Below the pieces are notes generated by a model. That model saw only the letters and a list, made by a program, of their open reading frames with translations, was not told where the DNA came from and made no database searches. From the NCBI RefSeq assembly GCF_037975245.1, contig NC_092562.1:6859501-6923500 (forward strand): DNA of 64,000 nt, given 5' to 3'. Source of the stretch: Apostichopus japonicus. Its lineage: Eukaryota; Echinodermata; Holothuroidea; Aspidochirotida; Stichopodidae. The position numbers were made by a program, and so were the translations under genes. This document shows, piece after piece, positions 3,426 to 57,020 of the stretch. Each line of letters starts with the position of its first letter. The stretch's first letter is position 1.

Positions 3426-3559
3426 GAGTGCTGAGCCCCTCCTCAAACTGTCAGATAGAATATTACAACCAGAAAGCCAGTGGGCTTATTGTGATTCCCT
3501 GCCAATTGAGATTATAATCCCAAGCTCTCATCATTGTTGATTAAAATGATCAGCAAGGT

Positions 3560-4850
3560 TCTTTCACCGGATGTGGACCTACCTACTAAATATGTTAACT
3601 TACCAAGTTTAAAGTTATATTTAGCAAAAATCAACTCAAGCCCTGTCCCCTAATAAATGTGCATAATATCACATTGAACATACATTATCATCACCTGCTA
3701 TCAACCAACCTTCACACAAAGTATGTTTCAATTCTGAAAATGTTTACATTTGACCCTGTGACCTCATTTATATTCTTGAGATGAGCACCAAAATCAATAG
3801 GGCTCTTCTACTCACTATGACGCATGTATGTACCAAGTATGACTTCAATCCAACTTGTCGTTGTTCAGCTACCATGTTTACAAGCTATTTTAGTGAAAAT
3901 AAACTTAAGCCCCGCCCCCTCATAAATATGCATATATCAACTTGAACATATATTACCATGTACCCGCTATCTACCAACACACTAATACCAAGTATGAATA
4001 AATTCTGAATTCGGTTGCAGAGTTATAAGCATTTAGAGATTTTCACGTTTGACCCTGTGACCTCATTAGTATTCATGAGATGAGCTCCAAAATCAATAGG
4101 GTTCATCTACTCACTATGGCACATATATGTATCAAGTATGACTTCAATCCAAGTTCTGGTTGTTCAGTTACCGTGTTTACAAGCTATTTTAGTGAAAATC
4201 AACTTAAGCCCTGCCCCCTAATGAATATGCATCATATCAACTTGAACATATGTTACCATGTACCCACTATCTACCAACACATTAATACCAAGTATGGATA
4301 AATTCTGACTTTGGTTGCAGAGTTATTAGCAATTGGAGATTTTCACGTTTGATCCCGTGGCCTCATTACTATTCATGAGATGAGCACCAAAATCAATATG
4401 GTTCATCTACTCACAATGACGCATCTATGTACCCAATATGACTTCAATCCAACTTGCCGTTGTTCAGTTATCGTGTTTACAAGCTATTTAAGTGAAAATC
4501 AACTTAAGCCCCGCCCCTAATAAATATGCATAATATCAACTTGAACATATATCACCATGTGCCTGCTATCTATAAACATATTAATACCAAGTATAAATAC
4601 ATTCTGACCTTGGTTGCGAAGTTATTAGCATTTTAAATTTTTTACGTTTGACCCCGTGACCTCATTATTATTCATGTGATGAGCACCAAAATCAATAGGG
4701 TTCTTCTACTCCGTATGGCGCATCTATGTACCAAGGATGACTTCAATGCTACTCTCCATTGCTGAGTTATCGTGTTTACGAGCCAATGGCGTCACATACA
4801 CACACACACACACACACACACGCAATCACCATCGCATAGATTCCTTTTGT
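3560..4850. repeat. Four-fold ~300-bp tandem repeat ending in a CA tract
   Basis: The phrase GAGATGAGCACCAAAATCAATA recurs near 3778, 4077, 4377 and 4677, giving a 300-base period. Each unit carries ACCAAGTATGACTTCAATCCA, ACTTAAGCCCCGCCCC and TTTGACCCTGTGACCTCATT. The array ends in (CA)n at 4796-4821 and a tail (CACCATCGCATAGATTCC) like the one after 49634, so it belongs to the same dispersed family. Confidence 0.8.
4796..4821. repeat. (CA)n microsatellite
   Basis: An almost pure CA dinucleotide tract at the downstream edge of the 300-bp tandem block. Confidence 0.9.
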
Positions 4851-5836: not shown

Positions 5837-7543
5837 TTATATCTGTGCACATAGTGAGCTGGGGCGGCCGTAGTAGTCCCTCACACTCTTGCATACAACA
5901 GTTTTCTCTGCATAAGACACAAGCTGTGTTCTAAAAAGTTTCTTCATGATCAGCTTAAGATCTGTAGTTGTTGTCTCCTCCTTTACATATGCAATATGCA
6001 TCATGGCTCCTAATGAAAAGAGAGAAAAGAGCTAACAGTTACCATGCTGTAAATAACTTCGGTTGCATCTATAACTCTTCCAAGGCCACAATTGTGCCAA
6101 GATAAATTGCAGCTAAAATGCTAAAATCACGATTTTGAAGAAAAAGTTAAGTTAAAACATCAGACAGTAGTACAATTGGATCACAAGAATAAAGTGCACA
6201 AACTATGACTGATAAATATAAGCTAAAACCTTTGTCACAAACCTGGAATGCCAAGTGATTCATTGTGAAAAAAAAAAGATCCAATAATTTACTCTTACAA
6301 GTAAAAGTGCAACACAGTCTGAAATAGTTTGTATTGACAATATCATGTGATGTTAGACATTTTATTCGAAATGGCCACTAATATTACCACTTTATTACCT
6401 GAAATGCAATAGATGCTTGTTTTTCTTCCTTTGGCAAGGGTGTGAAAATGAATTTGGATGGTTTAAGAAAAGCTGACAACTTGATTGTTTTTTTTGCATT
6501 TCTTGTTTTTAACTTGTAACAGTTTTGAGTTCAAGTAACTGTACACTGTTTTCAATACATCGGTTGGCCACAGAAGTTCACATGCAGACCCTGAATTAAA
6601 AGAGTATAAAATTAAAATCTTTAGTACTAACCATCTGTTGCTGTTGCAAGTTTAGCATAAGTTCCCTTTGGTGTGTCAAGAACCTCTGTGATACTTTCAG
6701 CACTGCTTCGCTTGTTGAACAATACACTGCCATCATAGTTGACACCGATGATGGGAACTTTGCCGATGGTCTTCTCAAGTCGGTTGTAGTTTGAGATGAC
6801 ATTAAAGGTGATTCCATTGTTTGACAAGGTGTTTACAGCTTCATCACGTTCTGTTTCCAAGTACTGGAGAAAGACAAAACATATTTGAACCATTGTTATG
6901 CTTGCTTGATGTGGCATAGGTATACAGAAACACCACCACAAAGGAAACAAAAATATATTTCCATTGATGAAAATGAGACTAAACAATCAGTAGAGAGTAC
7001 CTTCTAATTGGAATTTTTCCACCAATAATCTCTCAAACAGGATAAGACACTGCTACAGAATTTCATTTTGACATTGAGGAATTGTCCCAAATTGTAAGCA
7101 AGTACCAACCTCTTTGTTGTTATCAGCATCAATCAGAATGAAGATCTTTCCAGCTGATGGTCGCAGGGCCAGCTGTGAAGCATACTTAATGGCCTTGAGG
7201 GCATCACCCTTCCTTGGAGAGCATGGACACGACTCTTCATTCCCACAGAATTCGAGACTCTCTACAGCGTTGCCAAAGTTATCATTGGTGAAGGATTCCA
7301 TCTCGTGGCTGTGGAGGTGAGGAGCGCAGTGATCATAGTCCCGACCGCCAAAGGCAACCATGGCAAAGTTAGAATCAGGATAGTTGCTGCGGATGCTGAT
7401 GTAAAGGTTCTTGAGGTTCATTTTGAGGTCTTCTTCTGAAATACCATTGGTCATGCTTGCGCTCTCAGAGATGACAAAGACAATATCAGCTGTTGTGACT
7501 GGTGGCCTGGAATATGTGCATGGCTCTGTTCTGACTGGGTCAG
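5837..7543 (-). CDS. Exons 28-30: C-terminal von Willebrand factor A domain
   Basis: Residues about 4643-4921. Exon 28 gives a short Cys/Pro linker (VRTEPCTYSRPP), then the vWA core strand ADIVFVISESASM, followed by FAMVAFGGRDYDHC, GDALKAIKYASQLALRPSAG and KIFILIDADNN. Exon 29 adds ERDEAVNTLSNNGITFNVIS and the last strands. Exon 30 is a 57-residue tail ending SSLCAQI. The Rossmann-type alternation fits vWA, but the MIDAS is degenerate: the first Asp of DxSxS is Ser (SESAS) and the Thr loop reads PRKGDAL. Metal-dependent ligand binding is therefore doubtful, and a scaffold or protein-contact role is more likely. Confidence 0.85.
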
Positions 7544-10500
7544 CTGTAAATCAAAGAGGAATTCAAATAAGAACATCAACTGAAATAAAGATCATATATG
7601 CAACTTGATGCAAACACAGTCTTTTGACTTAGTTTAAAGGTGATTGACTAGCTAAAAAGAATTCAATTAACTTCACTGAGCAACAGTTAATCTCACCTGA
7701 AACAATCTCCAATGTTCAAACAAAAACTATCAGTCGAAACATTTCTTTGCATTTAACAACCTAATTGACACTAAGGTTTTAGATAAGCAATGAAGCATCC
7801 AAATGTCACATTCAATTAACCAGGCAAAGAGTCCAAGCATAACTTGTGAATACAATCCTTCCAATATCATATATAAACTTATTGGCATTGCTAGATTGCA
7901 ATACAAGGGGAAAAGTAATCAGCTCCCACATGCCATCACCATCTACACTTCCAGATTCTATCCTGCTGCTTGATAGTTTATATATCTTAAGTAATGTAAT
8001 CTTTACCCTGAATCATACAGTTGAAAAATCAACAAAGTTAGCATCAATTCACATGAACTGACCCAGCTCTGAATGACTACATGGTTATTTTATGACAGTT
8101 TCAGACGAGCTGAACACTCACCACATCCTGGAATGTCAACGAAAACTCCCTCAACACGGGCAAGGTTGATGTATGGGTTGACCATTTCAACAGTGGGTCT
8201 GCACTTCTCAGCATTGTTTCTGCAGGCTTCAAGGAAAGGCTCTGGGTTGATGATGTCAAAGATAGGGGTGAGGTAGGACAACTCCTGGTTAAATGCAGCT
8301 TCACACTCAGCCTTGAGACTGTTCTGGTCAGCAGTGTAACAGGATAGATCTGGAACTGCAGCATCTTCTGGCAGAGCAATCTGGCATTCTGCCAATCCAG
8401 AGACCTCATAGCTGTTAGCAAAGTCTACCAAACTTGGAGTGACAGTGCCATCTGGCTTGATGAATTCGTTGAAATGTTCTGTGTCCAGGTTACCAAGGAG
8501 ACCCTGTGTCTTACTGTAGTACCATCCACTGAGCCTGTATATGCACATGAAATTATCTTCATTGCATTTCAGTTCAATGCCGTAGGTAGTAGTGACATTG
8601 ATCCATGGACCATCACGTGTGACAATGACATCTCTGCTTGGTGTCACAAATGGTGGTGACTGAGGCTCTGGGTTACCATTGATGAAGAAAAGTCCCTTGT
8701 CGTCTACTGTAACTGTGCATGTCTTCAGAACCAGGGTAGTGCTCAACTCCTTGACGAGGAGAGTGAAGTTTCCATCAACAAAGTCACGTGCCAGTACATA
8801 GGTGCAAGCACTGTCTTCATAGGATGGAAATTCATAAACATGACCATCGAAGGTCATTACATGGCCAGTTCCAAAGATCATTCCAGTGTCTGAGAAGAAA
8901 GGCAACATAAAGATTAGTGATCTTTCTGTTATTCTGTTTGCAGTGTCTTCACAGTAGTATCATGATAGGTTTGTATCGGAACAAGAAAACTTTGATTTTC
9001 TAGAAACAGCTGCTAAACAATACATTTTATGGCATATTTTGCTTATGAATATTCATTGTGATGATGTCATTCATGATACGGTTACAAGCCTTCTGTTAAT
9101 AAGAATTACTTTTCTTCATTGATACCCAAGTTGTCACAATGATTACAGTTACTGCAAGCTTTATGTTTGTATTTTTCCATTAATATTCACCCCGACGATG
9201 TCATTTAGAACAATTATTAAGGATGCTTTGTTCATGTATATTCATCATGATGATGCCATTTAGAACAATTATTAAGGATGCTTTGTTCATGTATATTCAT
9301 CATGATGATGCCATTTAGAACAATTATTAAGGATGCTTTGTTCATGTATATTCATCATAATGATGTCATTTTTTAGTATGGTTACAGCAAGCCATTTAGC
9401 ATGGTTTTGAGTACTTACAGGTCCATGGTTTGACAAGAGGTGGCAGATCAGTTGGCAAATACAAGTCCCGGGTCAAATCTGCAACCTTCGCAAGTAATTG
9501 AGATACAGTCTCTGGAAATTCTTCCTGGTACTTCTTCAGTTGCTCTGTGATGTTGCCAGCAATCTCCTTAACTCTGGTGATGTATGTAGGGTAGTTAACC
9601 TTGATGTCTTCAATGGCACGAGTGACATTTGCTTTGAGTTCGGCCATGATGACGGGGTAATTTTCTTCAACATATTCCCTGGCTTCTTGGTAGGTCATAG
9701 TGACATTCTCCTTGAACTCTGTCCAGTTGAATTCAGCTCGCATCTCCTCAATTTGTTGCCTAGTCTCCTTGATCTTCTGTCTCAGTTCGGAGAGCTTTTC
9801 CTCAATCTTGGGACGATTCTCTTCAATTTGGCTGGTGATGTAGGTCATCAATTCCTCATAACGGTCTTTGATCAGCTCGGCCAGACGTTCAATCTGGTAT
9901 TTGCTGGGTAGGATAAGACGGGTTACAATTTCATCTTTGGTGATTACCAAAGCCTCAATCTGAGCATCAGTCAAGGTTGGCAGAGAACGGAAGCTGGTCC
10001 AGTTGAATGGATGGGAAAAGTTGACGGTCAAACTATTGCTATCAATGCTGAAGTGGACAAAACGGCTAACAAACTCTTGCACAAACACTTTGGTGGTGTT
10101 GCTGAGCTCAATGATGGTTTCTGCTCCTTTGACAGAGGTGTAGTTCCACAGTTGGAATGGTAGTGCCTCCACTTTGTAGTACCTGTACATCCAACCTGGA
10201 AAGGAAACACCAATCATGTTAGACATGAAGACTTGGTACAGCATCAAGAGTGAAGTCCCCCACCCACTCCTTCCTCTTCTTCTTAACTATTTTACCATGA
10301 TGGATGGATCAAATATGGTTTCAAATGAGCCAATGATGGCTTCTCAATCATTGGGTACACTGCACTATCAACCAATTAAGCAATTCCCTATTAAAGTGAA
10401 CAGAAAGAAGCACTCTAAGAATAAAGAGTATGTATGAGGAAGAAGATTAATAGGTAAGGTCAATATCTATGATAATCTTTCCTTCTGAAGAGGGGAACAT

Positions 10501-13500
10501 TCTAACCACAATGAGTGCCAGCCTCCCTCCCTTCACAACCTCCCCTATCCCCATCCACCTTACACTGAAGTATGGCTTGACATACCTGGCAGGGTGTTGT
10601 TGAGATACTCTACGTATCCTGTTGATCTGAAGACAACAGTATCCTTGGTCATCAGAAGAACCTCAATGGTGGAGTCCTTAGTTTGCTCCAAAAATTTGGT
10701 GATGTTAAGTCTAAGTTCTTCAACCTTTTCTTTGTATTCTTCCAGCTTCTCGACAAGCCCAGTTTCTTCCCTCAGGTACTCGATGGCTTTCTTGGTAAAT
10801 ACAATGGTATCCTGGATGGTTTCATTAACTTGGATGAAGGTTTTATTAAGGAATGTTACCACATTCTCTACATAGATGGGGATCTTGTCAAGGTTTTCTT
10901 GGCTGGTTAGGTTATTCCACAGCTCAATGGAGATGATCAGAGTTTTGTTAGCAACTTCTACAGTCTTGATGAGAGTTTGATTTCCCAAATCCAAGGCTTG
11001 AAGAGCAGTTTTGTTAGCAAACTCAATGATCTGCGATAAAGCAAGAAAGAACAATCCAAATCATTTTACGAAATTAAATGTTACTATAAACCTTGCAAAG
11101 TCTTCAACTGCATGCTATTTTTTGATATATGCAGACAGATCTGTGTTCAAATTCTCCAGCTACTTCACATTTTTAGCTACACAGGCTTTACATATTGGAT
11201 GAAAAGATTTTAAAAAGTTCAAAAAATGAAGATAAGAAGATGTTTTCTAACCTGCTCAATGGTAAGATTTAATGGTTGATCCTTAGCCACCTCAATCCAG
11301 TTCTTCAGGTCTATCAAAGTTTCGTTCATGAGTGTCACAACTTGCAAAACGGTATCGTTAAGGCGCTCAAGGGTAATGTTGTACTCGATGAGGGTCTCGT
11401 TGATGGTAATAACAGATTCGTTGAAGAAAACCTTTACAACTTCAATGTATTCCTTGCCTTGATCTACCAGAATAGTGACATTCTGCTTGACATCTTCGTA
11501 AATCTGGTGAAGAAATACAATGGTATCGTCAATATTGTATAGAATATAGTTGAAAAAATGACTACACATTTCTTATATTTATAAGGCAAACTTGTAGAAC
11601 ACTCTCAAAAGGAGTGCACATAATTGTCCAGTTGAGTACTAACTTATCATCCTCCCAATGTCCATTCATGAATGTGCTGAATTATAATGGCACACAATAC
11701 AACCCCCCCCCCCAAACCCATCCACTCACTAATATGAGAAGACTAAAAAACATTTTTTTAAACAGACAATGGAGACTGTTTATAAATTGTGCATCCTGAT
11801 ATAATGCACATCATTAATTTACTTTGTGATTGATAAATAAATGATGTATTAGCTCACATTAATTAAGAATGTCTTAAAGAAACTCACCTCAAACACAGAC
11901 ATTCCAAGCAACTCGATGGGGTATTTGTTGATGGAGTGGGTCTTGTCTGCTAAGATCTCTTCAAGCAAGGCAAGTTTTTCTTTGGTTGTTAACTTGAGTT
12001 GTTCCAGCTGCTGCTCCATGGTTACTTTGACTGTTTCCCAGGTCTCCTGGCTTAGGGTGTTCACAGTCTTTCCTGTCCATTCAACTGGGTAGTAGTTCAG
12101 ACAGTTTCCTTCATTCTTTGTTATCTCAATGAGCATATCCATGGTTTCAATGCGCCATTCATTAAGAAGTTTGAGTTTCTCTGCAGTGTCGTTGAGGGTT
12201 TTGTTTGCAAAGATGGTCACATTCCTTATGAGGTCTTTGCTTAGCTCAGTGTATTGTTCTGTCAAGTTCAGCATGAGTTGCTGGTATTCAGGTAACCTCT
12301 CAATTGTGTCGTCGATGAAGGTGGTAATGTTGATGCACACATCACTGGATTGTAGGAGGATATCATTCTTGTACCTTGTCAAAAGACCAATTGCTTGAAC
12401 AGCATAAGGCTTGCTCTTCTCAACCAACAGGGAAGTGATGTTTCGGACAATGATCATACCTTTCTCTGTGTTGTTGCTGACAAATTCGGAAACAATTGGA
12501 TAGTATTCCTCATACTTCTCTTGGAGAGTCTGGTTAGCCTTCTCAACATAGTCAATGATCACAATCTGCCATTCTCCAGTTTTGTTGACAGCAATTTCCG
12601 AGACATTCTGAACTAAGTCAATGAGCTTCACACTGTAGATTTCATACAAGATGGTTGCATTGGTGTACAATTCCATGCTCTTCTCAATCGTGATATTGCT
12701 GTACTGCTTGTACAGTACCAAAGCCCTGACACGGTAAATCTCGTAGAGCTCGACAGCTTTCTGGCCATACTCTTTGGTCAGTTCAAAAGCCTTCTCACCG
12801 TAGACATCTGACGCATTGACAGCCTTCACCCAAGTGACGTTGAGGAAGTCTAGCACAGTGACGTCCACGAAATCAAAGATGGTGGTGTCAAAATACATGA
12901 CTGGAAGAATGTTGATTGGGTGTGTTTCGTTCTTGGTAGCATTGATGATGACTTGGAGGGTGGTATTCAGTTTCTCAATTGCAAGGTCAACTTTGGTCAT
13001 GTTGATTCTGCTGGTAACATTTTGCTTAAGCTGCTGGAGAATCTCCTGTATTTTAGTTGTGTTAACGTTCTCATAAACTGTCTGGTTGAACTGCAGAGCG
13101 ATGGCAGAAACCTTGTCCTTGAGTTCAGGCCAGTTCATGCCAGAAACCTCCATCAGAGTATCATTGAGACCTTGAACAGCATCTTGGACCATGACCTTGA
13201 ATTCTTCATACCTGATTTTCATTTTCTCCACTTCTTCATTGGCTTTGTTCTTGAGATCTTCAAGGGTGGCATTTAGTTCCTCTTTGATGTAGTCAGCAAG
13301 TTCCACCATTGTGGCATTCAGCAGAGGGATATCCACATAGGAACGGATGGTCTCGTTCCAGGCCTCTAGATCAAGGTTCGCCTTCAGTGTCTGGTTAGCC
13401 TGCATGGCGAGCTTCTCAACCTGAGAAATGTTGATAAACTGCTTAAGGTTGTCAAGCATCAACAGCTCCTTGATTTTGATGTATGTGCTGTTAATGGTTT

Positions 13501-16500
13501 CCATGTCGATATCAGCAAGGTCCTTGAAGGTAACACAGCCAACATTTATTTCGACTGCCCTCATTTCATCTATGGCTTCGGTAAATTTGGTTGTATTGAT
13601 CAGCAGTTTCATCTCTTCTACGAACATCATGAGGTTTTCTCTGTTCAACTCTTTAAGCTGCTTCCTGATGGTGAGATTGAGCTTTGGAACATCAACAATC
13701 TCATTGAACTTAGCACTGATGAGGTCGTACTTGATGGATTCCTTCACTGTTGCCAGCATCTCCTCAAGTTTTGGCTTCAAAAGTTCCCAGGTCTCTTTGG
13801 GGTAGGTGATGTAGAAGATGATATCTAACATGGTCTTATTCACTTTGTCAATCTTCTCTTGAAGCATGTATCTTTCATCTAACTTTCCATAGGTCACAAG
13901 AGTGATATTGACAGCCTGTTCTGTGGTTGCTTTCACAACATCATACACATTCTTCAGGGCTTCCTTGGGGTTTTCTTGAGTGAACTCAACAATTTCCATA
14001 AGTTTGTCATTGATTTCATCATATAGTGTAACATTGACATACTTTTCCAGGAAGTCCCTTGGGTTTTTGATGATGTCGTTCACAGTGATGTTGAGCTCTG
14101 CTAATTTCTGGTAAGAAAGTGACATAACCTTCTCATAGCTGTCCCTGGTCTGGTTTACCAAAGTCATGGTGAAGTTGATGGTGCGGTTCAGCGCATCAGT
14201 AGAAATGTCCATAAGTTCTGCAATGACCTCTGGATTCCAGCTGAAGTTTGTGTATATAACATCACTCTGGTTCAGTTTCACAAAGAGACTGAAATCTTGA
14301 ACCAGGTCTGTTGTCTTGCCCTGTAACAACAGAAAATATGAATTTTATACTTGTTAAGTAATGATATTCATCAGGCATAACCCAAATCTTTCATATCAAA
14401 GAACCTTATCAAATGTAAATTAGGTGTAGTTGTTAATGCAATTTAGACTCAAGATGAAAAATCATCATTCCTATTCCATATCTAGGATATTAAAAAAAGA
14501 TCATTTTACAAAAGAAAATCATCAGTTTGAAGTCCATAGCAGAGGAAGGTGGCTTCCAAATTTTGAAATTTAGTAGTTATTTATTAGTATTTATTCATTT
14601 CAAACTCACCTCAAGCATGTGCTTCATCTTGATTGTCATCTCATCTCCAACCTCATTAAGGTGTCCATGAAGGTGGATGTAGCCATATGATGGAATAGTG
14701 ATGGATACTTTGGCATTTTCATAGTCGATGAGTTGAGCAATCTCTACACTTCCCTTACTGGTGATCAGTGTAGTGGCCAGGGTCTCAACAACATTGCCCC
14801 AGCTTGATTCTCCAGCCATGGAAAGAACCACCTGACTGTCTGTGAGTGGAGTCCTCATCTTGATTTCACTATGAAGATTAATATCATCAAAGGAGTTGAT
14901 GCCATCCATCCCACTGAGCTGAAGGCTTGATGTCACGTTGGTGCTAGTGTAGGGGGTGGAGATGTTGTGGACCATGTTGCCCTCAAGCAATGCTACATCG
15001 AAAATGTTCCTAGAGGCTTCAACGTGGAAGAAACCATTTGAGGTGACATTCAATGGTTTGCTGAAAACCTTCATGTCATACTGACTAGTCAAGATCTTGA
15101 AGCTGGTCACATTTAAAACATTTCTCCATAGTGCCTCACCGCTTACTTGCATCAATCCCAAGGGTCCTGATACAGTGGTCAAGGTATTCATGTTCATCTG
15201 ACCCAGTTTTACGAGGCCGTCCATGGCAGTGATGCTCATACCATTAACACTATCCATGTTGCCAATTAGAGTTTCAGCAGTAGCATTTCCATTCAGTTCC
15301 ACTTCATCAAATTTCAAGAAGCCGGTGACACCCTTGAGAGCATAAAGAAGACCAGTTGTTACATTAGCTGGCTTGCTGAAGAGGTCAGTCTTAGACACGA
15401 GGCTTATCAGGTCAAAATCAAAGATGCTCCTTACATTACTGATGAGCAGAGTGGAGCCACTAGTTGTGTTCATAACTGAAGTCTTAACATCCCAGGCAAT
15501 GGTAGCATTGGCCTTTGTAAAGTTAGTTAGACTTTCGACATCATTAGCTTCTAGGTGGACGAATGAAGTACCATTGGCAACCAAAGACTTAACTTCATAG
15601 CTGTTTGTCAGGAAAGCTCTGGAAAATTTGGTCAGGCTTTCAACGTCATTGGCTTCTAGGTGCACAAGGGTTGTTTCATTTACAAGAGCAGTTGTGATAT
15701 TATAACTGGTAGTAAAAAGAGCTTTGGAAATGTTGAAAAGACCTTTGCCATTCAAAGCCTCCACAACCATGTCACCGGTGTAGTTGACTAAGAAGTTGAT
15801 GGTTTCAAGAGACGAGGAAACATTCATCCTTTCAAAAACAAATGGTCCTTCAAAGTTGACAAACTCAGCTCCGGCCATTCCTGTCAAAAGCTTTCCAGCT
15901 TCAACCTTACCACTCATAGCCATGTTAGTGAAGTTCATGAAACCTTTGAAGTCATCCATGTTAACAGAGCCAATAACTTCCAGTTCTCCAAATGGTGTGT
16001 TAACCACTGTTCCAGTGGTTCCTACACCCTTTGTAAATGTAAGTAGACCATTAGCAAGCATGATGCTGAAGACATTGGTTGATGTAGCATTCACATATCT
16101 GGTGTTCAGATCCATGACATTGTTTAGATGAAGTTCATCATAGATAAACAAGCCAGCATTGCCAGAAACTGCATACCTGAATTTATTGGTAGAGTTGATA
16201 AGTCCAGTGTTATATCCATTGACGCTGACTTCAAACAATTCACTTCTGAAGAGGCCTGTAGATTTCATCATGGTAGCTTGGTATCTCTGTTCCATAGTTT
16301 CAGGTTCGCTGACAAAGCTCAATGTTGCATTGTGTGAAAAAAGGTCGAAGTGCATGAATTTGTCATGTCCAAGTACTGCAACTTCTGTTCCCAAAGTCAT
16401 GTTGGCTAATTTGCTGGTGACAGCCATCATACCTCCTAGATGTGCCTTGGTTAATCTGAGAAGACTAGTCTGGTTTAACATTTCAACGCCTGCTTCTGCC

Positions 16501-19500
16501 TTCATAGAAACGATGGTAGCATTGACAGAGCCACTTCCTCCCACCTTGAAGGTGGTGTAGTTGAAAAGAGCCTTGGAGTCAGTCATTTCACTGCCGACTG
16601 CTGTTGACATGTTAACCACTGGAGTTGAAAGACTCATGTTAGCACCCATGCTTGCCCTCTCAAACTTGAAGAGAGCATTCTGTCCCAGGAGTTCATAGCC
16701 AGCAGCAGTTTCAACAGACAACAACTTACTCTTCAAGCTTGATTTCATTGCAGCAGCAATCTTTTCTGATTCTACCAACTTCCTCATGCCAAGAATCTCA
16801 TATTCAACACTGTTGTTCAAAACCAGAATTGGCAAGGAGAAATTTGTGCTGGCACCAAATCTGAGGCTGTCAAAGTCAAGGAACTTCCTGCTGTCAAGCA
16901 TTTCAGTAATCATTCCATTGGTGAAGTTGATGTAGCGATTTTTGATGTTCATAGCACCCATGGTAGAGGCAACATCAAAGTCAAAGATTCCTCTTAAGTT
17001 GTTTATGTTGGTCTCCTGCATGGCTTTTGCAGCAAAACTTGAACTTGTTGAGGTTGCATTCTGTGTCATGTAAAATTTGTCAAAGGACAGGCCATTCATG
17101 TTGATCATGGAGGTAGTCATGCCCACAGAGCTGTTCATATACTTCAACAACATCAGTAGACCTTCAGAGGTGATTGTAAGTTCGCTGAAGGTGTTCCAGC
17201 TTTCAAATCGCTTTGCAAGCATTGAGCCAGCAGACGACATGTTCAAAAACCTGCTTATTAATGCATTTTCTGCCTTCAGGCTGGTGAGATCAAACTGGAA
17301 AGGTCCTTCAGAGTTCTCTGATATGTGTGAAATGTTTGATCCAATGCTGCCAATAGGTGTGGTGATGTTGAAGGCAAGTGTGTTGGTTGCAAGTTCATGC
17401 ATCATAAACCCAGATGCACTGACCCATTTAGTGGAAATGTCCATGGTCATGTTAGAGACTGGAGTAGAAGATTCATGGGAAAGGCTGTTGATGATGTTCT
17501 TAAATTTGAATAGGCCATCCATACCCTTAGTGCTGGAGAACATGTTTCCACTCATGTTAAAAAGACGTGAAGTGGTCTCATAGTTCAATCTACCAAGCAC
17601 AGTATTGGAATGAAGAAGTCCTTTCATCTTTTTTACCTTGCCAAACGATGTCAAAGAAGAGTTGATCCAACTACTTGTAACACTTCCTTCAATAGTAGAG
17701 TTTGCCTCACCGAAAGTCAAGAGTCCTTCACTTTCATAGATACCATACGTTTCAACAAGTCTAGCTGCACCCAAATATTTGCTGCTCATGGCATAATTCA
17801 TCTCAGCAATAGCGCTATCATAAAAGGTCAGGTTTTGAAAGTTGTTAAGTTCAAACCTCTGGCTCATAAGACCATTACCTAACATGGATGTGACATTCCA
17901 GCTCATGCTGCCATTGACTTTGTCAAAACTGAAGATGTTACGGACACCTGTGAAATCCAGCCCATTGGTGGTTGTAACATTCACCATTCTAGAGGTGATG
18001 TTGAAACCAGAGGAGCCATTTATTTTCTGGAAGTCCAGTGGAGATGAAATGTCACTGATGTCATAGCCAAAGCTGTAATCAGCATTTCCGATGACTGAAT
18101 CCAAGTGGTAGCTGTTGATGGACCTGATTTTACTTGCAACCAAGATGCCCTCGACATTGTTGATCTCAGATGAAGAGTTGATGTTGAAGCTCATGAATGG
18201 GCTGGTGACATTTACCGCAGAAGATGTGTTCAATCTGTCAAACTCCATGTAGTCATTGAAACCACTTGCTTCAATGCCGGACTCGGATGTGTAGTTCAAG
18301 AATCGAGATTGGAAGATTCCCTTGATTCCAGCTTCTGACTTGGAGAACTTGAAGAGGCGCTTGAATGTATCAAACTTGGCAGTACCAATAAGGTAGGAAT
18401 AACCAAGGATGGATTCAACTTCTTGTTCCAGGCCGAATTCCATTACATCAAACTTGGTGTAATCTTTCATTCCCTTGATGATGAAGCTACCACCCATTGT
18501 GACGTTGGCAATTTTTGGGGTCTTCATGGTGCTGCTCAGAACCAGGTTAGAATTGAGGGATTTGCCGTACTTAGCCTTACCAGTAACTGTGGTAGTAAGT
18601 TCAGAAAATGTGCCAAGATTGCCACTCACCAGAGTGCTGACTGTAAATACACCAGAGTCTTCTGGTCCTTGAAGTAGGTGCTCGACATTAAAGTTGACTG
18701 ATGGCCTCTTCATCATAACGATCAAGGAATGGTTCACCCTGTTCATGTCCAAGACTAAGTCATGGTCCATGCTGACGTTCATGATATATGGTGTACTTAC
18801 ATACAGATCATTACCAACAGTTAGACTTGAGTTAGTGATGTTGTAGGAAACTTCGAGGACGGTAGTTTTGATAGCTTCAAATTCGGAATGGTAGGTTTTG
18901 TTCAAGAGGTCACGCATAAAGAATGGCACCATACTGAGAGAAAAGTTGGTGACTGGCCCATCCAATTGTATCAGGTGGTCAGTGGAGATATTGATAAGTT
19001 TGTGGGTCAAGTGGAAGCCGAGACTGCTGTTCTGCCACATCTTCATGGTGAAATAGTCTGCAGAGAATAAATAAGACAATGACATCAATTAGCTAAAGGA
19101 ACTTGCCGTGTCTCATCATCTGCTTCATTCTACTTTCAATGATATCTCCCCTTTTTATTTTTTAGTGAGTGGATTGTTTCATTTAAGTAGCAACAGATAT
19201 TCCCAGAGTTTCAGTTATAGAGACCATATGAAGGATGGCAGAAAGAAATTCCAGATCAACCAGTGATAGTTGAGTAAGTGCCTTGCATGGTTGTCAAACT
19301 TTCATTTCATGTGTGCAACTTTCCATGGTGAAACTAGGGAACATAAGTGCTAAAAAAAACTAGAATATTCCATCAATTGATTGGAACTTTACTAGAGGGT
19401 GATATAAATGACATAAATATGAAAAAGCACTCTTATACATGCAGTCATGCTTATCCTAGTATGCACGTGATCAGCAATGACAACGAAGCCATACACTGAC

Positions 19501-22500: not shown

Positions 22501-25500
22501 CTGTCTTGTTACGATGGAAGGATAGAACAGTCATCACATCCCGTCTGATAGAATCACCTGAAAATAATAAATCAATCATTTGAAAATTGATTTATTTCTC
22601 AATACTGATAGGATAATTAGAATATTATTTGTTGATCAATTGCTTATCACCTCTCACCAAACCACTGCTTTCAAACATGATTCTAAGTACTTATTGTGGG
22701 GGACTGATCAGAAATAATGCTTGACATTAACAATACTGAGTCAACAAGCAATTCTCATTCAAATTAAAGAGAAATGAATTGTAAACAAGAATCATCTTAA
22801 CACAAGTCATCTTAAACATCTGGATGTGTGGATTCAATTAGCCTTCAAACATCGGACTGCAAATACTGATCAAAACATGTTGCAAAATTGTCAACCAACC
22901 TGGTGCAGTGAAGTTAACAGTAATCATGTCAATAACCTCCTCTGGTGGCACATAGGTGCTGCTCTTGCCAATGCTGCCAAAGTTCTTCTTGCGGGGAACC
23001 TTGCTGGGCTTAGCTCCTCCCTTCACAACCTGGCGGTATTCTGCTACAAATGTGTAAGCTCCAAGAGTCCTGGAATCAATGAAAGATGATGCCAATTAAT
23101 TAACTACAATGTTAGAGGATGAATGACTTATACTCTAATTCCCATACAAGGCCGAACAATGTGATGTTTGCAACTTCAACAATGGCAACTATAGATCAGG
23201 AAATATGTTATCATCACAAAAGCTGTACATGATTATACCATTTCTTGGCAGGAAGGAAAATTACGTTTCACATCCCAACAAAATTGTTAATTTTTTCACA
23301 TGATAAATGATAACTTACTGATCGGTGTTGTTCAGGGTGATGTTGAAGCTAAGAGGTCCAGTCAATGGGAACCTTGGGGCAATCTCAACATAGCTGGCAT
23401 TGGGGTATGCAAAGGACATACATAGTGATGCACCAAGGATCTTGCCGGGGTTGGCACATTGCTGATACTGAAAACAAAGCAAAATTACAAGCATTCAAAT
23501 AACAATAAGGCATTTTGAACAGCAACTTTTGAAGCCACATAGACTGCAACATTCCACTTAATTTTTGTTTTGGTCTAACAATAAGAAAACTTTCAGTCGG
23601 TCAGATAAATTCTTTAGCCCAATGCAAGATTGGATAGCTTACTTTGGAGAACACTAATATTCACAACCTAGTCTACTCAAACTTTCACTATGCAATTGAC
23701 GTATCTTTATATTGAACGCACACAGGACCATCTTCAATGTACAGTACATCTTGAGTGCATTAACATAATATCCACTAACAGATCTGTATAAAGGTTTGTA
23801 ATCGGAGGGCTTAGGAAACCTTCAGGACCACCCAAACATTTCATAGGAAACAAAAGTATATCAGACTTAAAACTAACATACGAATAGTTCTTCTAGTAAG
23901 AAAAAAACAATCATCTTAATGATCAAACTTGATGATTGAGAGTTGAACTTGTTTGTATTGTCTTGTATTGTCTCACCTTGACAGCATCCTCCATAATTCC
24001 TGGGATAAAGCTCATCTCACCGTTGGGTTTCAGCAGAAAATAGTTGACAGAGAAGTTGAGAAGGTTCATTGGTTTATCAAGAGCCTTAACTTGGACCTTC
24101 AGTTTGGGTCCATCAATGGTAACATTACCCTCAATGTTAGAGCTGTGGTACATTGATGCATTGGCCATAACACCAGCATGCATTTTGGTTGTTGGGATGT
24201 GGACTCCCATGGTGCCAAGAATTTCAATGCCAGCGCTATTGGGAGAAAACACAAAGATAACTGTGTGAATGAAAATCCAACTGCTATGAATGAAAAACTT
24301 CTACTGAAAGCTTATAACTAAAGATTCCAGTGCCTACAGATATGCCCGCTTAGCTTTCTTTATAGCTATTGCCTCAAACTTTTATAGGTCATTTCTGTCG
24401 TTGCTTGTATTATGCCATCTTAGCTTTCATTTATTTTCACCATATTTTTTTTTCAGGAGATTTGTAACTGAAATTGGAGGAACAAAATCTGACAGTAGAA
24501 ACTGACCTTGGGGCAAGACGTCCTGAAACAGTTGCAGAAGGTAGCTGAATGGAGAGCTGTCCACGAGTACGTACAGACATAACCAGTGATCCGTTGGCAG
24601 AGCAGTTAAGTGGCATACCAAGACCAGTTGGAAGAACAAGTTCACGCTCCAAGAAAATAATGGATCTGGTGGTGTTAAGATCTACACCTTCAGTCAACTT
24701 TTGACCCAACTGCAAAGAGACAGATTATTCATTAGGTTTTCCCTCTTGGAAGAATGATGTTACCTTCATCTATTACATTCTTCCCGATGTAAGCATGTAT
24801 TTTTTGTCAAATTTTAATATGGTCTGGTGCAGGCTATGAAAAATATCTGATGGAGGATTGAAAGGAAATTGGATAGGATAGGATAGGATAGGATAGGATT
24901 CCAAACAAAATAGTATTGCCCTTTCACAGTTTGGGAGGCATTTCTTAAGTTAGTCGGCAAACTTAGGTCAAAGTTGTCCACCATCTGTGTATGTTTTACA
25001 TTACCTTATATCTACAAGCATGGTTAAAGGGTTACTTGAATCAAGGGTGAAATACCTACCTCCTGGACCATGCCTTCAAGCATCTGTTTATCAATAACTG
25101 GAATTAAACTCTTGATGTCATCAAGGGTCACATAACCAAGTTCATTGCCCAAGATCCTGAGGTAGATGGAAGCAATGCGCTCCTTTTGTTCCTTGTTAAT
25201 AACATCATGCATGTTAGCCAAGTTCTCCTGAATATCATTGTCCAATCCATTCTCAGGCTGCAGAACAAACAAAAGGAAATATACCTGTTATTGCTACCAT
25301 GCCCTATACAAAATATGTCAATACCAAACACACACACAGCTATCACTCATGCTTACTGGAGTTTCCCTTAGTTATACATAAAGTTACTTAGCACTATATC
25401 ATTCATCAAAATACATTTTTACATACAGTAGAAGAGATCCTGAAAACACTGTTACATTTTTTTCACTCACCAGTGGTTCTGGTTGTGGTACTGGCACTTT

Positions 25501-28500
25501 CTGTGTTAGGCTCTTAGGGAGGTTTGAGGCACTGTTCTTGGTATCAGCAATTGCCTGTGATCCTGCTGCTTGGAGATCCTTGAGTGGTGTGTTGGACATG
25601 ATGATGTCCATTACACTAGCAAGCCAGTTCAATGGGAGGCTAGCATTGCGGACTCTGGACATGATCATCTCATCGGCTCCACGGAACATTGACTGCATCA
25701 TGTTGTTAGGGAAGAAACCAGCTGGACCAAAGACACTTTCGAGAATAACCTCAAAGCCCTGAACATCCAAGCCAGTCTGAAATGACAATATGATTAACAT
25801 TTAGCACAAAAACTTAAATGGATTGTGGCATTAACATTATCAGTAGGCATTCTGAGTGGTAGGTGAGATTGCATTTGTGTGGTAGGTAGGTCTGAGATAT
25901 TTTTTAAGTAAGATGAATTATTTCTAAGGTTTGAAGTATGGAGTTATATTTGTTCCTTACCTCAATGAGTTCCCATTCTTTGCCCATGGCATTGATAGCA
26001 GATTTAAGCATGAGAGATTTAGGCATGAGAGCCTCTGGATTGAAGATGATGTTGCTCTCGATGGATCCACCGAAGGTCTTGTTGAAGTATGGGATGGTCA
26101 GTATCTTAGAGATCTCGATGTTACTTGAATACTTGAGGATGTTCTTAGGGTACTCTGGGAACTCTGTTTCACCAATAGCCAAAGCAAGTTCTTTCCTCAG
26201 GCTTGTAGGGAAGAGACAATATATTTATGATTAACTTCTTCATTCAATCCAAGTGTTTTCATAGTTTTAACATTTTAGCTGAACATAAAAAAAATTAAAA
26301 CATATCTTCTTGGAGGTTTGCTTGTATTAGTTCTGTAAATCAATGATTCTTATATAATACATACCTCTGCACAGAGGGATCTTCAGATTCCAGGATATTG
26401 CTCATGTGGGAATAGGTAAAAGCCTTGAACTGCTTAACAGGTTCATTCTTAAGAGCCTCATACACACTAATGAGATGAGGGGCCTTGATATCAGATTTCA
26501 TGTAGATGAGGTAGGCAGCAATACGGACTTCAACGTCGAAAGAAACATTCAGGAAAGCCACCTTGAGGTTGTTGATGACAAAGTTGCTGACAATGGACAT
26601 GTTGAAACGTCTGAGAGCTTGGACAGCATTCAGTGAAATGTTGTAGCTGACCTTCTCGTTGATGGCACACTTCAACAATTCACGCTCAAAGTGGAGCCTC
26701 TTGCGGAATTCTGATGCATCATACTTCTGTGCAACAGGTCCAAGGTTTCCAAGAGCCTAGGATTCAAGGAAATTAGTTGTTATTTTGGGAGAACTAAACC
26801 CTCCTTTCATCAGAGAGTCCATTTTGATTTAATAAGTTTTGTACTACATGATATGAAACTAGTTTTAAAGTACAAAATGTCATTCATAGAAAAGCTGGTT
26901 GTATTTTGAGAGATAGAGTTGAATGGATAAGGTCATCTAAAAGTGAATGTTATCCTCCGATATTCACTAGAAAGATCCCAACATGACTGATAATGGTTAA
27001 GTTATGATCTCACTTCTACATTAGTTTTTCATTTCCAGAGCAATATATCTTCTCTAATTGTATCATCTTCATTGCTAAGGAGTAACTTGCATGATTCAAG
27101 AAACCACAACTGTTGAAATATTTAAATGTTTAAAAAAACTTAAACACACCTTGATGGCCAGCAAAATTTGGCGTTCTTCCTCAACAGCATCCACAGATTT
27201 GGGGTCTGAATTCAAAGTGCAGTCATTGTTGATGATGTTGTTCAACAATTCAATAAAATCCTGGATGGCAACAGGGAGCTATGGAAAGAAACACTTGGTC
27301 AGGTATATCACAATATATATCACACAGGTATATCACATACATACAACTACATATATCTGTTTGATCTTCTGTTCCTAAGCAGATCTACAATAGCTGTGAT
27401 AAAAATAACAAAAGGCTTAGCAGAATGATTCAATACTTGATTCATTTAGACTGAGTTTGAATGTACTACTGAAGGTGTGAATGCTTCTTCACGGAACATT
27501 TATTAATGGGAAAACTGTGTGGTAGGGACAAAACATACAAAGAATTCAACATACCAACAACGTTCAGTATCAAACTTCCAATAAATTCTCTGAGCTAAAT
27601 ATTTAGGCTTACTCCAATATCATTAATTTGCCAGAGCTATAAAATACATACCTCACGTTCATTGTGGATCTCTGGATGGTCAAGCCAGTATTTGTAGATC
27701 ATGGTACTGACTGGCAAGAAGATGGACCTGGTGCGGTTAAACTGAGCAACTCTCACCGCCTCGGAGATGATGTCCAAAGTTGGGTAGTCCCTGAAGGCCA
27801 TTGTGTACATCATGACATGAGCAAGAGGCTTGGGGATAATGTTCTTAATGATGGCAGTGTTGACAACAGAGAAGCAGGGAAGAGTTCCACACTGGATCAG
27901 GCCATCCCAGAGGTACTCACTGGAAGAAAATGCAGTTTAGGAGGTAAATAATTGTATCAATTTATTAGCAAAAGGACCCATTTTCCACCTTCAAAAAGGC
28001 ACTTTTGTTCAGTTCACAAAGGTTTGCAATACATCATAAAAACAAGAATGAAGTTTTTAAAAAAAAGTATTAAAAGAAAACTTTCCAACCAATTCCTGTG
28101 CCATGTGTGAGGTGTTTCTATAAGATCAAACTAAAACATTCTAAATTCATCAGATTTTACATTGATGGACCATGAACTCACCGTGCAAGTTCTGGTTTGC
28201 CTACAGTGTTGGCACACTTATCAGAGTACTTCTCACAGTAGAAGGTCTTTTCAAAGACTTCATGGATGGTGTCATTGTTCAAGCTCCTGAGAGCCTTGAC
28301 CCAGTAACCGAACTTCCTTGGAGAATCCATCTTGACCTCATCAATAGTAGACTTGACCAAGTCTTTAATGTATGCCATAGCTTCATCAACAGACAATTCC
28401 TCCGTGGACTCAACCTTTGGGATTTCCTGAACAATGTTGGTAGAACGCTTATCATCTGTTAATAAAGTTAAGATAAACTTAAGTAGGCTAAAATACAGCA

Positions 28501-31500
28501 GATACATTAAAACAGAAATTAATTAGTTATCCTCATGGAGCAAAGTAAGGTAGATATTTTAATTTCAATGACTCACCTTAACCCTAATCACTTCTAGAGA
28601 GTAATGAAGTATACATTGGCCAGCACTTAACAAGAGATAGGGACAGACATGATATGTTCAGTCATTCAACTTACATCTCAGAGCCTTGAAGTCAAGAGAG
28701 TTCAACTTCTGCAAGTCCTGTTGCTCGAGTACTTGAGTCACGGTAGTCATGATACCACGGTCATTGGAGATGCTCATAGGCCAGAAAGAGTGGACTTCTT
28801 TACATTCTGCTCTTTGCATGTGTTGACCCTTGATGTCATAAGTCTCATAGCGACACTGTTGTGAGGAGTTGAGCAGGTTGCTTCCAATGCTCTACAAATA
28901 AAAGAGAAACATTTGTCATAGCTGCAAAACAATTGAATACTTATGTCATATATCAATCTTCAAAAATATCATTAGCTTTTAAATACACTCCCTTAACAAT
29001 ATGCAGACTTTCCATAACCCAGAATAAATATTAGGAAATAACACAGTTGGAATCAAATACGCCATTGCTTATCCTAGTATGCATATATGAACATTTTTCA
29101 AATAAATACTTGTATCCATGATTAATTTGATAGCAATATCTATTTATACTCTGTTTGGTATATCATTGTTTCCTTACCATGTTCTGCAAGTAGGCAAGTC
29201 CAGACCACAACAGAGGTGTCTTGAAGGGCTTCTGGGTACAGCTGCTAAGGTCTCTTGTCACCAAAAATTCTTCTGTGAATTCGTCAGAATTTGGAACATG
29301 AGTAGTAGTAGCAGAGCAGTTACCATGGATGGACAGTTGATCTGAGACAAGTTCCTCCTGAACAGAGCCAGTCCACTCCATCTGTAGAGCACTGAGAATA
29401 CCCTTCTTCACATTGAGGACCTCCATAGTCTCATCAACATTAGGGAGCACTTCAATCATCAAACCATTGCTGACATGTGCCATAAGTTCATATCGCTCCA
29501 GATTCTGGGCAAATGCCCTTGTCTGTAAAAGAAATGAATACAGACATTCTTACAGTCTGTAAAGTCTATTGCAATGTTTTAAGGGAGGGACACACCTTTT
29601 GTCATCATAACAGGGAAGAGTACACTCAGTACAGAATATTTCTAGAAGTTAACTTACATTTGTAAATATAACATATACAATTTCCTCTTGTTATTGCATT
29701 CAGTTTCAACCTGCAAGATCTCTAGTGCATAGAATTATAGCAATAATGGATATACCATTTCCATACTTAGGCAAACAAACTGTGTTTTACTGAACAAAAA
29801 TAATGACACTGTTCGTGATATTATGGACTGGTCTTGAAGTTATGGAGAAAAGGAAATTTGATAAATTGAACATGAAACAGCAATTGTAGCAGTTTACAAT
29901 AAGAGAAAGATGAGTGAAGATATATGGAGGTGAGCTGTTCCTTACCTGGTCTGTTGCCGGTGTAATTTCACATTGTCCTATGTTCAGTACAACTACGCAT
30001 TTCTGAGGTACTCTGATGACTACATGATCACAGGCGATCCTGGTGTTTGAGGTAACATCGTGAGTTCCTACGATTCCTGTTTCTGTGGTACCGATGTAAT
30101 TGAATACATATTCCTTTTTGTACTGGAAAAGACCTATGGAAAAAGATTATTAATTGAAGAGATTATTAACCAATGAGAAGACAGAACAATGCGAGGAGCA
30201 TATGATGGTTTGTATCACATAGAACAATTAAAAGACTTCCAACTAATCTCATTCACAAAACACGTACAGTGAAATCAGGTAATGACTCTATATGAAAACT
30301 ATGAGGAAACAGGATTTAAGATTTATCAAGATGAAAAATCTTATCACAAACCTGACCCTTTGGGTCATGCATGAAGTTGATAATAAGCACCATTGTTTCA
30401 TCAAGTAAATACTTGAGAGTTAATTGTTAATTGATAAGAGACTAATTAATCATAGTCTATCAGAATTAATCAGATAAATGAGATACAGTGATAAGCAACT
30501 ATGACAGAATATTTTCCCAAAACAGAAATCCACCACACCAAGATTTAAATTTCAACTTAACTTTGTTGGCAAACTTATGCTGTGTGATACTGAATTTATT
30601 TTACTTGTCATTTTGATACTACTTTTGACAGCATATGATATAAGTTAGCAACATTGTCACCTACAATAAAACTACCATCTACTTTTAACTTCACATGGAT
30701 GATCAAATACAGTCAACAAAACAGACATACAACGGGAGATCAACATAATTGTACTTACTGTTACATTGCACATCTTCAGCATCTTGGATGATTGGCACTG
30801 AGGAATTAAAAGAAAAGTGGGACATGGAGTAAATTTTTTAATTCACCGACTAATCGTATTACAATATACAAGAGTTAATCTAACTTTTGTTTGTGTTATT
30901 AAAAGTACTTGTGAAAATTCTTTGAAAATCACCTATTAAGTTAATAGAAATTGAGACCTACTAGAAGCAACTTAACAACAGTGACATAGTACAAAAAATT
31001 GTTATTTCATATGTTTCTCAAGTCTCACTTCCATGAAACGATCAACCTTTTCTGCAAAGAATACACCTGATATAACTATTAAGGATAGTAAAGTCTTGCA
31101 GTGGGAGGAGTGCCTCATAGAGTGGAATTATATGGAATGTTTTGAAAATGCTCTTAAACGGACCAGCCAATTATTAACTAGACTTGCAGTGATAGGAGCG
31201 CCTCACATGTAATACTCGTAGAATGGTATGGAAGACTTAAACTACGCCAGCCAACTTTACTGGGGAAGTGGGGGAATACTATCATAAACTAGCCCAGCAA
31301 ACGATTACAGGAGGTTTAAAATTTGAAACCTCTTTTTGCTGACACACAAACACTGTACCATTGGGAAAATGTTTAAACTGAAAGGTTTTTTATTTCATTC
31401 AAATCTGAGGTCGTCTCTTGCACTTGTCACAATAAATTCAAGTGCCTGTTGATTTAGGAGGGACACTGAAATAAATTTGTATCACTTAAAGTATTGGAAC

Positions 31501-54766: not shown

Positions 54767-55095
54767 AAGTCTTTCATAACCCTCATACCTTAGCTAGATC
54801 CAATACATTCTGTTCTACATCACTGGCCCAAGTCTTTCATAACCCACATATCCTAGCTAGATCCAATACATTCTGTTCTACATCACTGGCCCTTGGAAGT
54901 CTTTCATAACCCTCATATCCTAGCTAGATCCAATACATTCTGTTCTACATCACTGGCCCAAGTCTTTCATAACCCTCATACCTTAGCTAGATCCAATACA
55001 TTCTGTTCTAACCCTCATATCCTAGCTAGATCCAATTCATTCTGTTCTACATCACTGGCCCAAGTCTTTCATAACCCTCATACCATAGCTAGATC
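54767..55095. repeat. 63-bp tandem repeat, about five copies
   Basis: AAGTCTTTCATAACCCTCAT recurs at 54767, 54830, 54897, 54960 and about 55062, with CTAGCTAGATCCAATACATT and ACATCACTGGCCC in each. One junction has a 4-base insertion (CCTTGG) and one unit is partial. Confidence 0.93.
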
Positions 55096-57015: not shown

Positions 57016-57020
57016 CAAAA

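Follow-up and report, generated by a model that had tools for sequence, protein, structure and literature searches.

The stretch of Apostichopus japonicus DNA analysed here (the window, 64,000 nucleotides) contains a giant exon which encodes 35 successive units of about 35 residues each, within a gene that neighbouring domains identify as an apolipophorin/apoB-type large lipid transfer protein (LLTP). We consider it probable, at roughly 80%, that this array is a lipid-binding, apoB-like belt of beta hairpins which grew by duplication of single units and of blocks.

Table 1. Features in the window, from the N-terminal to the C-terminal side of the gene; residues are numbered in the 1,497-codon frame.
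Feature	Position	Strand	Basis or remark
Vitellogenin_N (lipoprotein N-terminal domain), one open frame	29166..29549	minus	PF01347 E 2.9e-10
Weaker Vitellogenin_N pieces	27640-27936 and 28181-28522		below cut-off
Vitellogenin_N, domain end	26343..26756	minus	PF01347 E 5.3e-12
Vit_open_b-sht (DUF1943, PF09172), five open frames	23926..26224	minus	
PF09172 frame	25907-26224	minus	E 1.6e-6
PF09172 frame	25402-25800	minus	below cut-off
PF09172 frame	25027-25287	minus	E 2.6e-5
PF09172 frame	24440-24724	minus	E 6.1e-11
PF09172 frame	23926-24300	minus	E 2.4e-6
DUF1081, apolipophorin/apoB marker domain	23321..23464	minus	PF06448 32.7 bits, cut-off 25
Giant LLTP-gene exon, holds repeat	14610..19057	minus	4,448 nt; splice signals
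35-unit array, residues 210-1431	14796..18461	minus	offset spectrum and cyclic-profile alignment
Unit starts, first 18	residues 210, 245, 280, 316, 350, 385, 420, 456, 491, 526, 561, 596, 631, 667, 701, 736, 771, 806		
Unit starts, last 17	residues 841, 876, 911, 946, 980, 1015, 1050, 1082, 1117, 1152, 1187, 1222, 1257, 1292, 1327, 1362, 1397		
Four modelled units	16569..17000	minus	AlphaFold2 on alignment A3: eight antiparallel strands predicted
Irregular join, residues 1045-1083 (unit at 1050)	15840..15956	minus	sole spacing outside 34-36 (32)
Five units modelled separately	15324..15857	minus	AlphaFold2 on A7, first 178 of 354 residues: ten strands predicted
Units at residues 1117, 1152, 1187	15426..15740	minus	first two near-copies, third resembles them
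Next exon, 831-aa open frame	11852..14344	minus	in frame with repeat exon
VWD domain near C terminus	8093..8959	minus	PF00094 E 5.5e-14

The repeat exon lies in an open frame of 1,497 codons (14598-19088) and has canonical splice signals at both ends, 19057 and 14610, read by eye (CTCTGCAG acceptor, GAG|GTGAGT donor). At the one splice junction read, also by eye, the reading frame continues into the next exon, the product of which is helical in appearance. Tandem Repeats Finder detected no array of about 105 bases, so the pattern is one of protein rather than DNA, and a Pfam search of the repeat exon returned nothing relevant (top row DUF5470, E 0.68).

The periodicity itself is confirmed. When the 1,497-residue frame was scored against itself without gaps (BLOSUM62), offset 35 ranked first of 297 (z 8.0), followed by 70 (z 5.8) and 105 (z 5.1), with scores declining from 35 to 140 and those at 34 and 36 falling under the mean of all offsets. 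The score at 35 was 0.127, compared with -0.739 ± 0.053 in 400 shuffles; the top score of 100 shuffles across offsets 3-59 was -0.516. A profile made from 14 units before residue 800 scored residues 841-1497 at 280.5 half-bits (maximum of 100 shuffles 37.4), and the reciprocal profile, from 16 units from 841 on, scored residues 1-800 at 437.5 half-bits (maximum of 100 shuffles 43.3), unit 806 being left out of both halves. The cyclic profile and alignment A2 were built on 31 of the 35 units (210, 631, 667 and 1050 excluded), and the cyclic-profile controls comprised shuffles (20 in the self-trained run and 100 in each of the remaining three) and reversed sequences in all four runs. A compositional artefact is ruled out by the shuffles, the reversed sequences and the held-out halves. 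These results confirm a preliminary description of a tandem repeat of about 35 units of 35 residues, many of them exactly so, with self-alignment expected at 35 and its multiples; the array bounds it gave (14750-18431) are shifted by the cyclic profile, which runs from 18461 to 14796. Spacing between units is exactly 35 residues in 27 of 34 steps and 34-36 in 33, the remaining step being 32. A single-unit HMMER model, its training being circular, matched 29 stretches in the window exon. A scan of 857 further open frames (50 aa or longer) from the window and eight additional loci, the other LLTP loci being represented by parts only, found the unit neither elsewhere in this gene nor in any other LLTP (top score 37.4 vs 40.1 for the best reversed frame). 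About 47 units are present in a paralogous frame at a distance of 15 Mb (full-length match E 9.8e-130), which apparently lacks the C-terminal tail. It is recovered by full-length and cyclic-profile alignments, unlike with the single-unit HMMER model built on the window, from whose matches it is absent at E <= 0.1 and even at E 10.

The units share a pattern of two faces, which were picked after the position table had been seen. Charged residues make up 3.1% of one face and 21.3% of the opposite one in the 35 window units (3.6% vs 23.6% in 45 paralog units), and the corresponding hydrophobic fractions are 63% vs 25% (62% vs 23%). The glycosylation sequon N-x-S/T recurs at unit position 21, such that, of the 34 units that have N21 in the window and paralog together, 28 carry serine or threonine at position 23, vs 5 of the 46 that lack N21, a test that overstates independence because the units share descent. 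Asparagine pairs with S/T chiefly at +2 (0.43 vs 0.20), and sequons are in excess both in the array (47 vs 22.4 ± 3.9 shuffled) and in the next exon (40 vs 8.2 ± 2.5). For the face and sequon tests, 35 window units and 45 of 47 paralog units were used, irregular units 1515 and 1546 being dropped. The motifs of the preliminary description can be recognised in this numbering: its sequon near position 9 is N21-x-S/T23 and its G-h-h-x-F is G35-L1-F2-x-F4.

Growth by duplication, which the same description had proposed, is supported by a near-copy pair, by a repeated block in the paralog and by colinear paralog units. Units 1117 and 1152 (BLOSUM score 91) are 64% identical in nucleotides, where all unit pairs average 33.0%, and appear on sequence grounds to be the youngest visible tandem duplication; the third unit of this trio, 1187, reaches 47% (BLOSUM score 52), as do other neighbours. 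The paralog contains a block repeat of 478 residues (z 10.2). Unit-to-unit similarity between the two paralogs is colinear, seen for 22 of the 35 window units (280-1015), whose counterparts lie at +20/21, or at that plus about 478 or 956. A different origin would be convergence, in which monolayer geometry fixes strand length and unrelated strand pairs drift to a spacing of 35 without unit duplication. Several observations fit such an account: mean identity between unit pairs is low (10.0-17.4%, by unit distance); conserved G32, G35 and D5 may be mere turn or bulge residues; and apoB, with no detectable sequence match, nevertheless has hairpins of like length where aligned. Similarity also fails to fade along the array, mean unit scores being 5.4, -3.1, 6.5 and -3.4 at distances 1-4 and 7.2 at 18; such fading was dropped as a proof of tandem growth. 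Neighbouring units score slightly above random order (5.4 vs -0.1 ± 2.4, reached in 1.2% of 5,000 permutations), and only 2.8 once the pair 1117/1152 is removed, so that age has hidden how the greater part of the array arose. Convergence is nonetheless rather improbable in view of the near-copy pair, the paralog's block repeat, the exact spacing of most units and a recurrent sequon which geometry does not demand.

AlphaFold2, given input alignments of other units only, predicts two strands per unit and periodic hairpins in both stretches modelled, as the preliminary description had anticipated. The four-unit model has a mean pLDDT of 91.1 and pTM of 0.75. In the five-unit model (pLDDT about 88, mean of residue blocks) the predicted strands start at 7, 42, 77, 112 and 147 and at 24, 59, 94, 129 and 164, an exact period of 35. 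The last 160 residues of this second model, with almost no alignment rows, were unfolded (pLDDT about 24-43), and the confident models therefore rest on unit-to-unit alignments. In structural comparison by VIA, the four-unit model matched apoB structures 9coo (Z 10.9, rmsd 3.8, 133 aligned) and 9bde (Z 10.0, rmsd 4.5, 137 aligned), with bacterial barrels of like Z. For the five-unit model 9coo was the first row, tied (Z 14.8, rmsd 3.9, 174 aligned), with 9bde at Z 14.2 (rmsd 4.3, 189 aligned), where apoB 3431-3625 superposes on model range 1-196, and the barrels BauA and BtuB at Z 14.2 and 13.9. Given this tie with outer-membrane barrels, and VIA's warning that for repeats a Z below about 13 may reflect merely a common arrangement, the fold match by itself does not point specifically to apoB. 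Foldseek gave no match at E <= 0.001 (best 0.028; apoB 9bde 0.11, probability 0.97). No solved chain matched the 31/35-unit profile at E <= 10, though apoB is in the library searched, and phmmer of solved chains with the repeat found nothing relevant. An amphipathic antiparallel sheet of long hairpins is described by the prediction and the residue pattern only.

The equal Z of the bacterial barrels could also be taken to indicate closed beta barrels, and beta-helix and beta-propeller models of apoB from 2022, described in passages of PMC9569473 and predating the December 2024 apoB structures, would favour solenoid or propeller domains over one open belt. Both forms are unlikely, since an apoB-type LLTP is expected to bear an extended beta-sheet belt, according to the relevant part of PMC12419007, and apoB is the (tied) first row for the five-unit model. 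The outer-membrane barrels are closed and come from another kingdom, and their likeness to the array, at a VIA Z tied with that of apoB, is an analogy only. TamA, BAM, BtuB and BauA are built of long amphipathic antiparallel hairpins facing lipid.

Assignment of the gene to its family, with all domains allotted to one gene by order and strand, points to the apolipophorin/apoB type. Compared with solved chains, frame 26343-26756 best matched human apoB-100 (9bd1, E 3.4e-7), followed by lipovitellin (1lsh, 0.0078), while frame 24440-24724, one of two frames tried, matched no LLTP at E <= 10. The PF06448 match is the sole one found in the genome. In the passages of PMC10799875 on classification, DUF1081 beside LPD_N marks the apolipophorin/apoB subfamily, and vitellogenin would by our reading have LPD_N, DUF1943 and VWD without DUF1081. 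Here DUF1943 indicates the LLTP superfamily and DUF1081 accompanies LPD_N; vitellogenin is rejected because DUF1081 is present at 23321-23464. A VWA-like frame is also present, subthreshold. That the array belongs instead to a mainly structural or immune/clotting glycoprotein, as the sequon excess and the VWD and VWA-like frames might suggest, is very improbable given LPD_N, DUF1943 and DUF1081 adjoining it on the same strand and its strongly amphipathic pattern.

Among known systems, the closest is the human apoB-100 belt (PDB 9coo, 9bde, 9e9r, 9ea7), which shares the superfamily, through the N-terminal frame, and on which the predicted hairpin ladder superposes at 2831-3009 (179 residues) and 3431-3625 (195). 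Passages of PMC9569473 describe three block repeats of 547 residues in A2610-E4059 of apoB, where the sea cucumber paralog has one of 478, and a short repeat of about 28 residues in 15 units (Q1528-H1944, by HHrepID), compared with 35 here. The belt here differs further in that a single exon encodes it as 35 units of nearly equal length, in which a sequon recurs, and in that these show no sequence match to apoB detectable by the 31/35-unit profile; in human apoB's belt no such 35-residue unit was seen by eye or profile match. Invertebrate LLTPs of the apolipophorin II/I type also have LPD_N, DUF1943, DUF1081 and VWD, although the searches turned up no apolipophorin sequence of any other species. 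A figure legend in PMC10799875 marks 'RPT: Internal Repeats' in Biomphalaria glabrata Apo/Vtg. The preliminary description's suggestion that no periodic unit had been described in this family holds for 35 residues, no such LLTP repeat appearing among the literature matches listed (subscription papers and preprints lay outside this scope), but not for LLTP repeats as such, which are already published in apoB and the snail; what appears to be new is the 35-residue variant.

We suggest that one 35-residue unit would form one beta hairpin: strand A at about positions 3-16, a turn at 17-19 (T/S-S-P/R/K), strand B at about 20-34 and a second turn at 35-2 (G-L-F). Some 70 strands side by side could then make a single long antiparallel sheet, its nearly charge-free face on lipid and its polar face toward water; this putative lipid-binding surface is read from the amphipathicity and the apoB match, and the sheet would probably lie as a belt on a lipoprotein particle. 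N21-x-S/T would stand just past one of the two turns, so sugars, if the sites are used, may line the belt along one of its edges. The belt would have grown longer as hairpins, one at a time and in blocks, were duplicated in tandem, and the constant 35 residues would keep strand length and register.

More tentatively, the array may act as a modular ruler, in which the number of equal 35-residue hairpins sets particle circumference, glycans fringe one rim, and the lineage tunes particle size by adding hairpins one at a time and in blocks of about 14 units, with 35 units here and about 47 in the paralog. Strands in a beta sheet are spaced by about 0.48 nm. Were the ruler real, the span would come to about 34 nm for 70 strands and about 45 nm for 94, by arithmetic at 0.48 nm per strand rather than by measurement. 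The elementary unit, its two turns, two faces and sequon are directly readable here, unlike in the human apoB belt, and the two paralogs display a single-unit and a block duplication, which makes them a concrete model for the growth of a lipoprotein belt and poses the question of whether particle size is predicted by unit number.

Self-comparison of the open frame that holds the repeat exon of the LLTP (large lipid transfer protein) gene bears out the 35-residue tandem repeat of about 35 units proposed in the preliminary description. In the gapless comparison, offset 35 is a sharp maximum (z 8.0), followed by 70 (z 5.8) and 105 (z 5.1), so the self-alignment at 35 and its multiples that had been suggested as a check is present; offsets 34 and 36 score under the mean, and the observed self-score is 0.127 against -0.739 ± 0.053 in 400 shuffles. 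A cyclic 35-position profile, with indels permitted, placed 35 units in a row over residues 210-1431 (window 18461-14796), spaced by exactly 35 in 27 of 34 cases and by 34-36 in 33 of 34. As a guard against circularity, the profile was trained on one half and scored on the other: residues 841-1497 reached 280.5 half-bits (shuffle maximum 37.4; reversed 24.3) and residues 1-800 reached 437.5 (43.3; 59.1). No tandem array is detectable at the DNA level and mean identity between units is only 10.0-17.4%, by unit distance, which makes this an old, protein-level repeat.

Features assigned to the LLTP gene in the window
Feature	Coordinates	Strand	Remarks
Open frame, 1,497 aa	14598-19088	minus	holds repeat exon
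Repeat exon	19057 to 14610	minus	canonical splice signals, read by eye from sequence without transcript
Vitellogenin_N		same as array	domain match
DUF1943		same as array	five frames, one below cut-off
DUF1081		same as array	sole match found in genome
VWD		same as array	domain match

The majority string of the window units is LFKFDKANLSSSGNVTSPLGNMTSNGSLEALGVKG; that of the units of a paralog, a second array-bearing frame in the same genome, is LFTFDNFNITSDVSFSSSLLNMSSNYTLEVDGSSG. Hydrophobic residues alternate, making up 63% of one face of the window units versus 25% of the other, with charged residues at 3.1% on the hydrophobic face versus 21.3%; the values for 45 paralog units are 62% versus 23% and 3.6% versus 23.6%, the face positions having been picked after the position table had been seen. 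The array carries 47 N-x-S/T sequons (22.4 ± 3.9 in shuffles), 16 of which start at unit position 21. Of 34 units that have N21, 28 carry S/T at position 23, compared with 5 of the 46 lacking N21; the Fisher value of 5.9e-11 is no true probability, since the units are related by descent. Taken over all positions, N is paired with S/T mainly at +2 (0.43 versus 0.20) and far less at +1, +3 and +4 (0.18, 0.28 and 0.27 versus 0.22, 0.21 and 0.21). The N21/S/T23 coupling is the trace expected of selection for N-glycosylation; polar composition alone would leave none.

The two strands per unit that had also been proposed were recovered in both stretches modelled with AlphaFold2. For the four units at residues 697-840, whose alignment (A3, 7 rows) drew solely on the rest of the repeat exon, the mean pLDDT is 91.1 and the pTM 0.75, with strands at 8-20, 25-37, 42-56, 59-72, 77-91, 95-107, 112-125 and 130-143. 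In a separate stretch (A7, 5 rows, residues 1078-1431), the first five units have a pLDDT of about 88 (blocks of ten at 72-95) and strands starting at 7, 42, 77, 112 and 147 and at 24, 59, 94, 129 and 164, an exact period of 35. The last 160 residues of this model, which hardly any alignment row covers, stay at pLDDT <50 and form no regular strands, so the single sequence is not enough. From the strand positions in the two models, each unit would have strand A at about positions 3-16, a turn at 17-19, strand B at about 20-34 and a second turn at 35-2; N21 lies directly after the first turn of the predicted hairpin.

Foldseek returned no significant match among solved structures (best E 0.028; apoB 9bde E 0.11, probability 0.97). 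With VIA-align, the four-unit model matches apoB 9coo (Z 10.9; rmsd 3.8, 133 aligned) on a par with TamA (11.1) and a BAM chain (10.9), while apoB 9bde stands at Z 10.0; the tool cautions that for repeats a Z below about 13 may reflect no more than a shared overall arrangement. For the five-unit model apoB 9coo ranks first (Z 14.8, rmsd 3.9, 174 aligned), and less than one Z unit behind it come BauA (14.2), apoB 9bde (14.2; rmsd 4.3, 189 aligned) and BtuB (13.9). Because 195 residues of 9bde (3431-3625) align with model range 1-196, hairpin length in that part of human apoB seems to be about the same as in the array.

Given a repeat and an LLTP family membership that are evident from sequence, the best-supported reading is that the array is an apoB-like amphipathic belt of one-hairpin units. 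Each unit would supply one hairpin to the predicted ladder, and we infer that the charge-free face contacts lipid, with the polar face toward water, and that the sequons bear glycans, sequon 21 standing next to one rim of the belt. A belt of amphipathic beta sheet has been described in apoB (PMC12419007). Repeats of two sizes are reported for human apoB, short ones of ~28 residues and three of 547 residues (PMC9569473), and internal repeats are marked in a figure legend on a snail LLTP (PMC10799875). The 35-residue unit appears to lack a published LLTP precedent among the open-access literature matches listed, and one may exist elsewhere.

The paralog frame (C2:22040773-22046904, 2,084 aa) matches the window frame at E 9.8e-130 and scores 448.2 half-bits under the window profile (maximum 46.3 in 100 shuffles); a HMMER single-unit model failed to find it. 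It holds 47 placed units, with spacings of exactly 35 in 35 of 46 and 34-36 in 41 of 46, and within it a block of 478 residues is repeated (z 10.2). Colinearity was scored for the 22 window units between 280 and 1015 (named by starting residue). In 18 of them the best-matching paralog unit is either the colinear counterpart or a copy of that counterpart one or two blocks further along; among these 18, unit 631 scores equally with a paralog unit that is out of line. Units 316, 385, 736 and 1015 do not follow the pattern. By this colinearity, the array is most likely older than the split of the two genes. Later events differ, with block multiplication in the paralog and a single-unit duplication in the window array. 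Units 1117 and 1152 share 64% nucleotide identity, versus a mean of 33.0% over all pairs; unit 1187 shares 47% with its neighbour, a level also reached by other neighbours. Mean unit scores show no fall with distance (5.4, -3.1, 6.5 and -3.4 at distances 1-4; 7.2 at 18), and neighbouring units are weakly more alike than in random order (1.2% of 5,000 permutations); the flat profile and weak neighbour excess count against a simple tandem history.

At the fetched paralog locus (frame L001:2687-8938) the frame stops at a TAA inside the array, with AATAAA signals downstream, and the helical and VWD exons have no match there. By analogy, the paralog looks like a tail-less, apoB-48-like form. Further LLTP matches in the genome lie at C2:16268888, C2:1571021 and C6:5564019, with no 35-residue units in the frames of the fetched parts of these loci. 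The locus at C2:16.27 Mb, where one frame has a Ser-rich start, may, at a guess, be a vitellogenin.

By the rule given in a passage of PMC10799875, the domain set around the array is that of an apolipophorin/apoB protein. ApoB is closest to one N-terminal frame among solved chains (E 3.4e-7); a second has no LLTP match among them. We infer the one-gene chain of domains from order and strand, except at the junction between the repeat exon and the next, which was read by eye and is in frame. Beyond the array, an 831-aa minus-strand frame (11852-14344) reads as long amphipathic helices, with 40 N-x-S/T sequons versus 8.2 ± 2.5 in shuffles; it has no other genome match at E <= 0.01, and every Pfam hit to it lies at E 0.1 or above. 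A helical-looking minus-strand frame at 9399-10286 resembles ApoLp-III (E 4.5e-8; 33.8 bits, below the cut-off of 36.3) and apolipoprotein A1/A4/E (E 1.6e-7; 31.7 bits, below the cut-off of 90), and perhaps represents exchangeable-apolipoprotein-like helices inside an LLTP. GC skew is markedly negative at 54001-64000, more strongly than in the rest of the window (-0.197 at 54001-56000; the three final blocks of 2 kb stand at -0.252, -0.216 and -0.201). Downstream of VWD, a minus-strand frame at 7056-7550 is VWA-like (VWA_2 E 0.016, VWA E 0.017, both below cut-off); if it belongs to the LLTP gene, this would be an LLTP ending in VWD and VWA.
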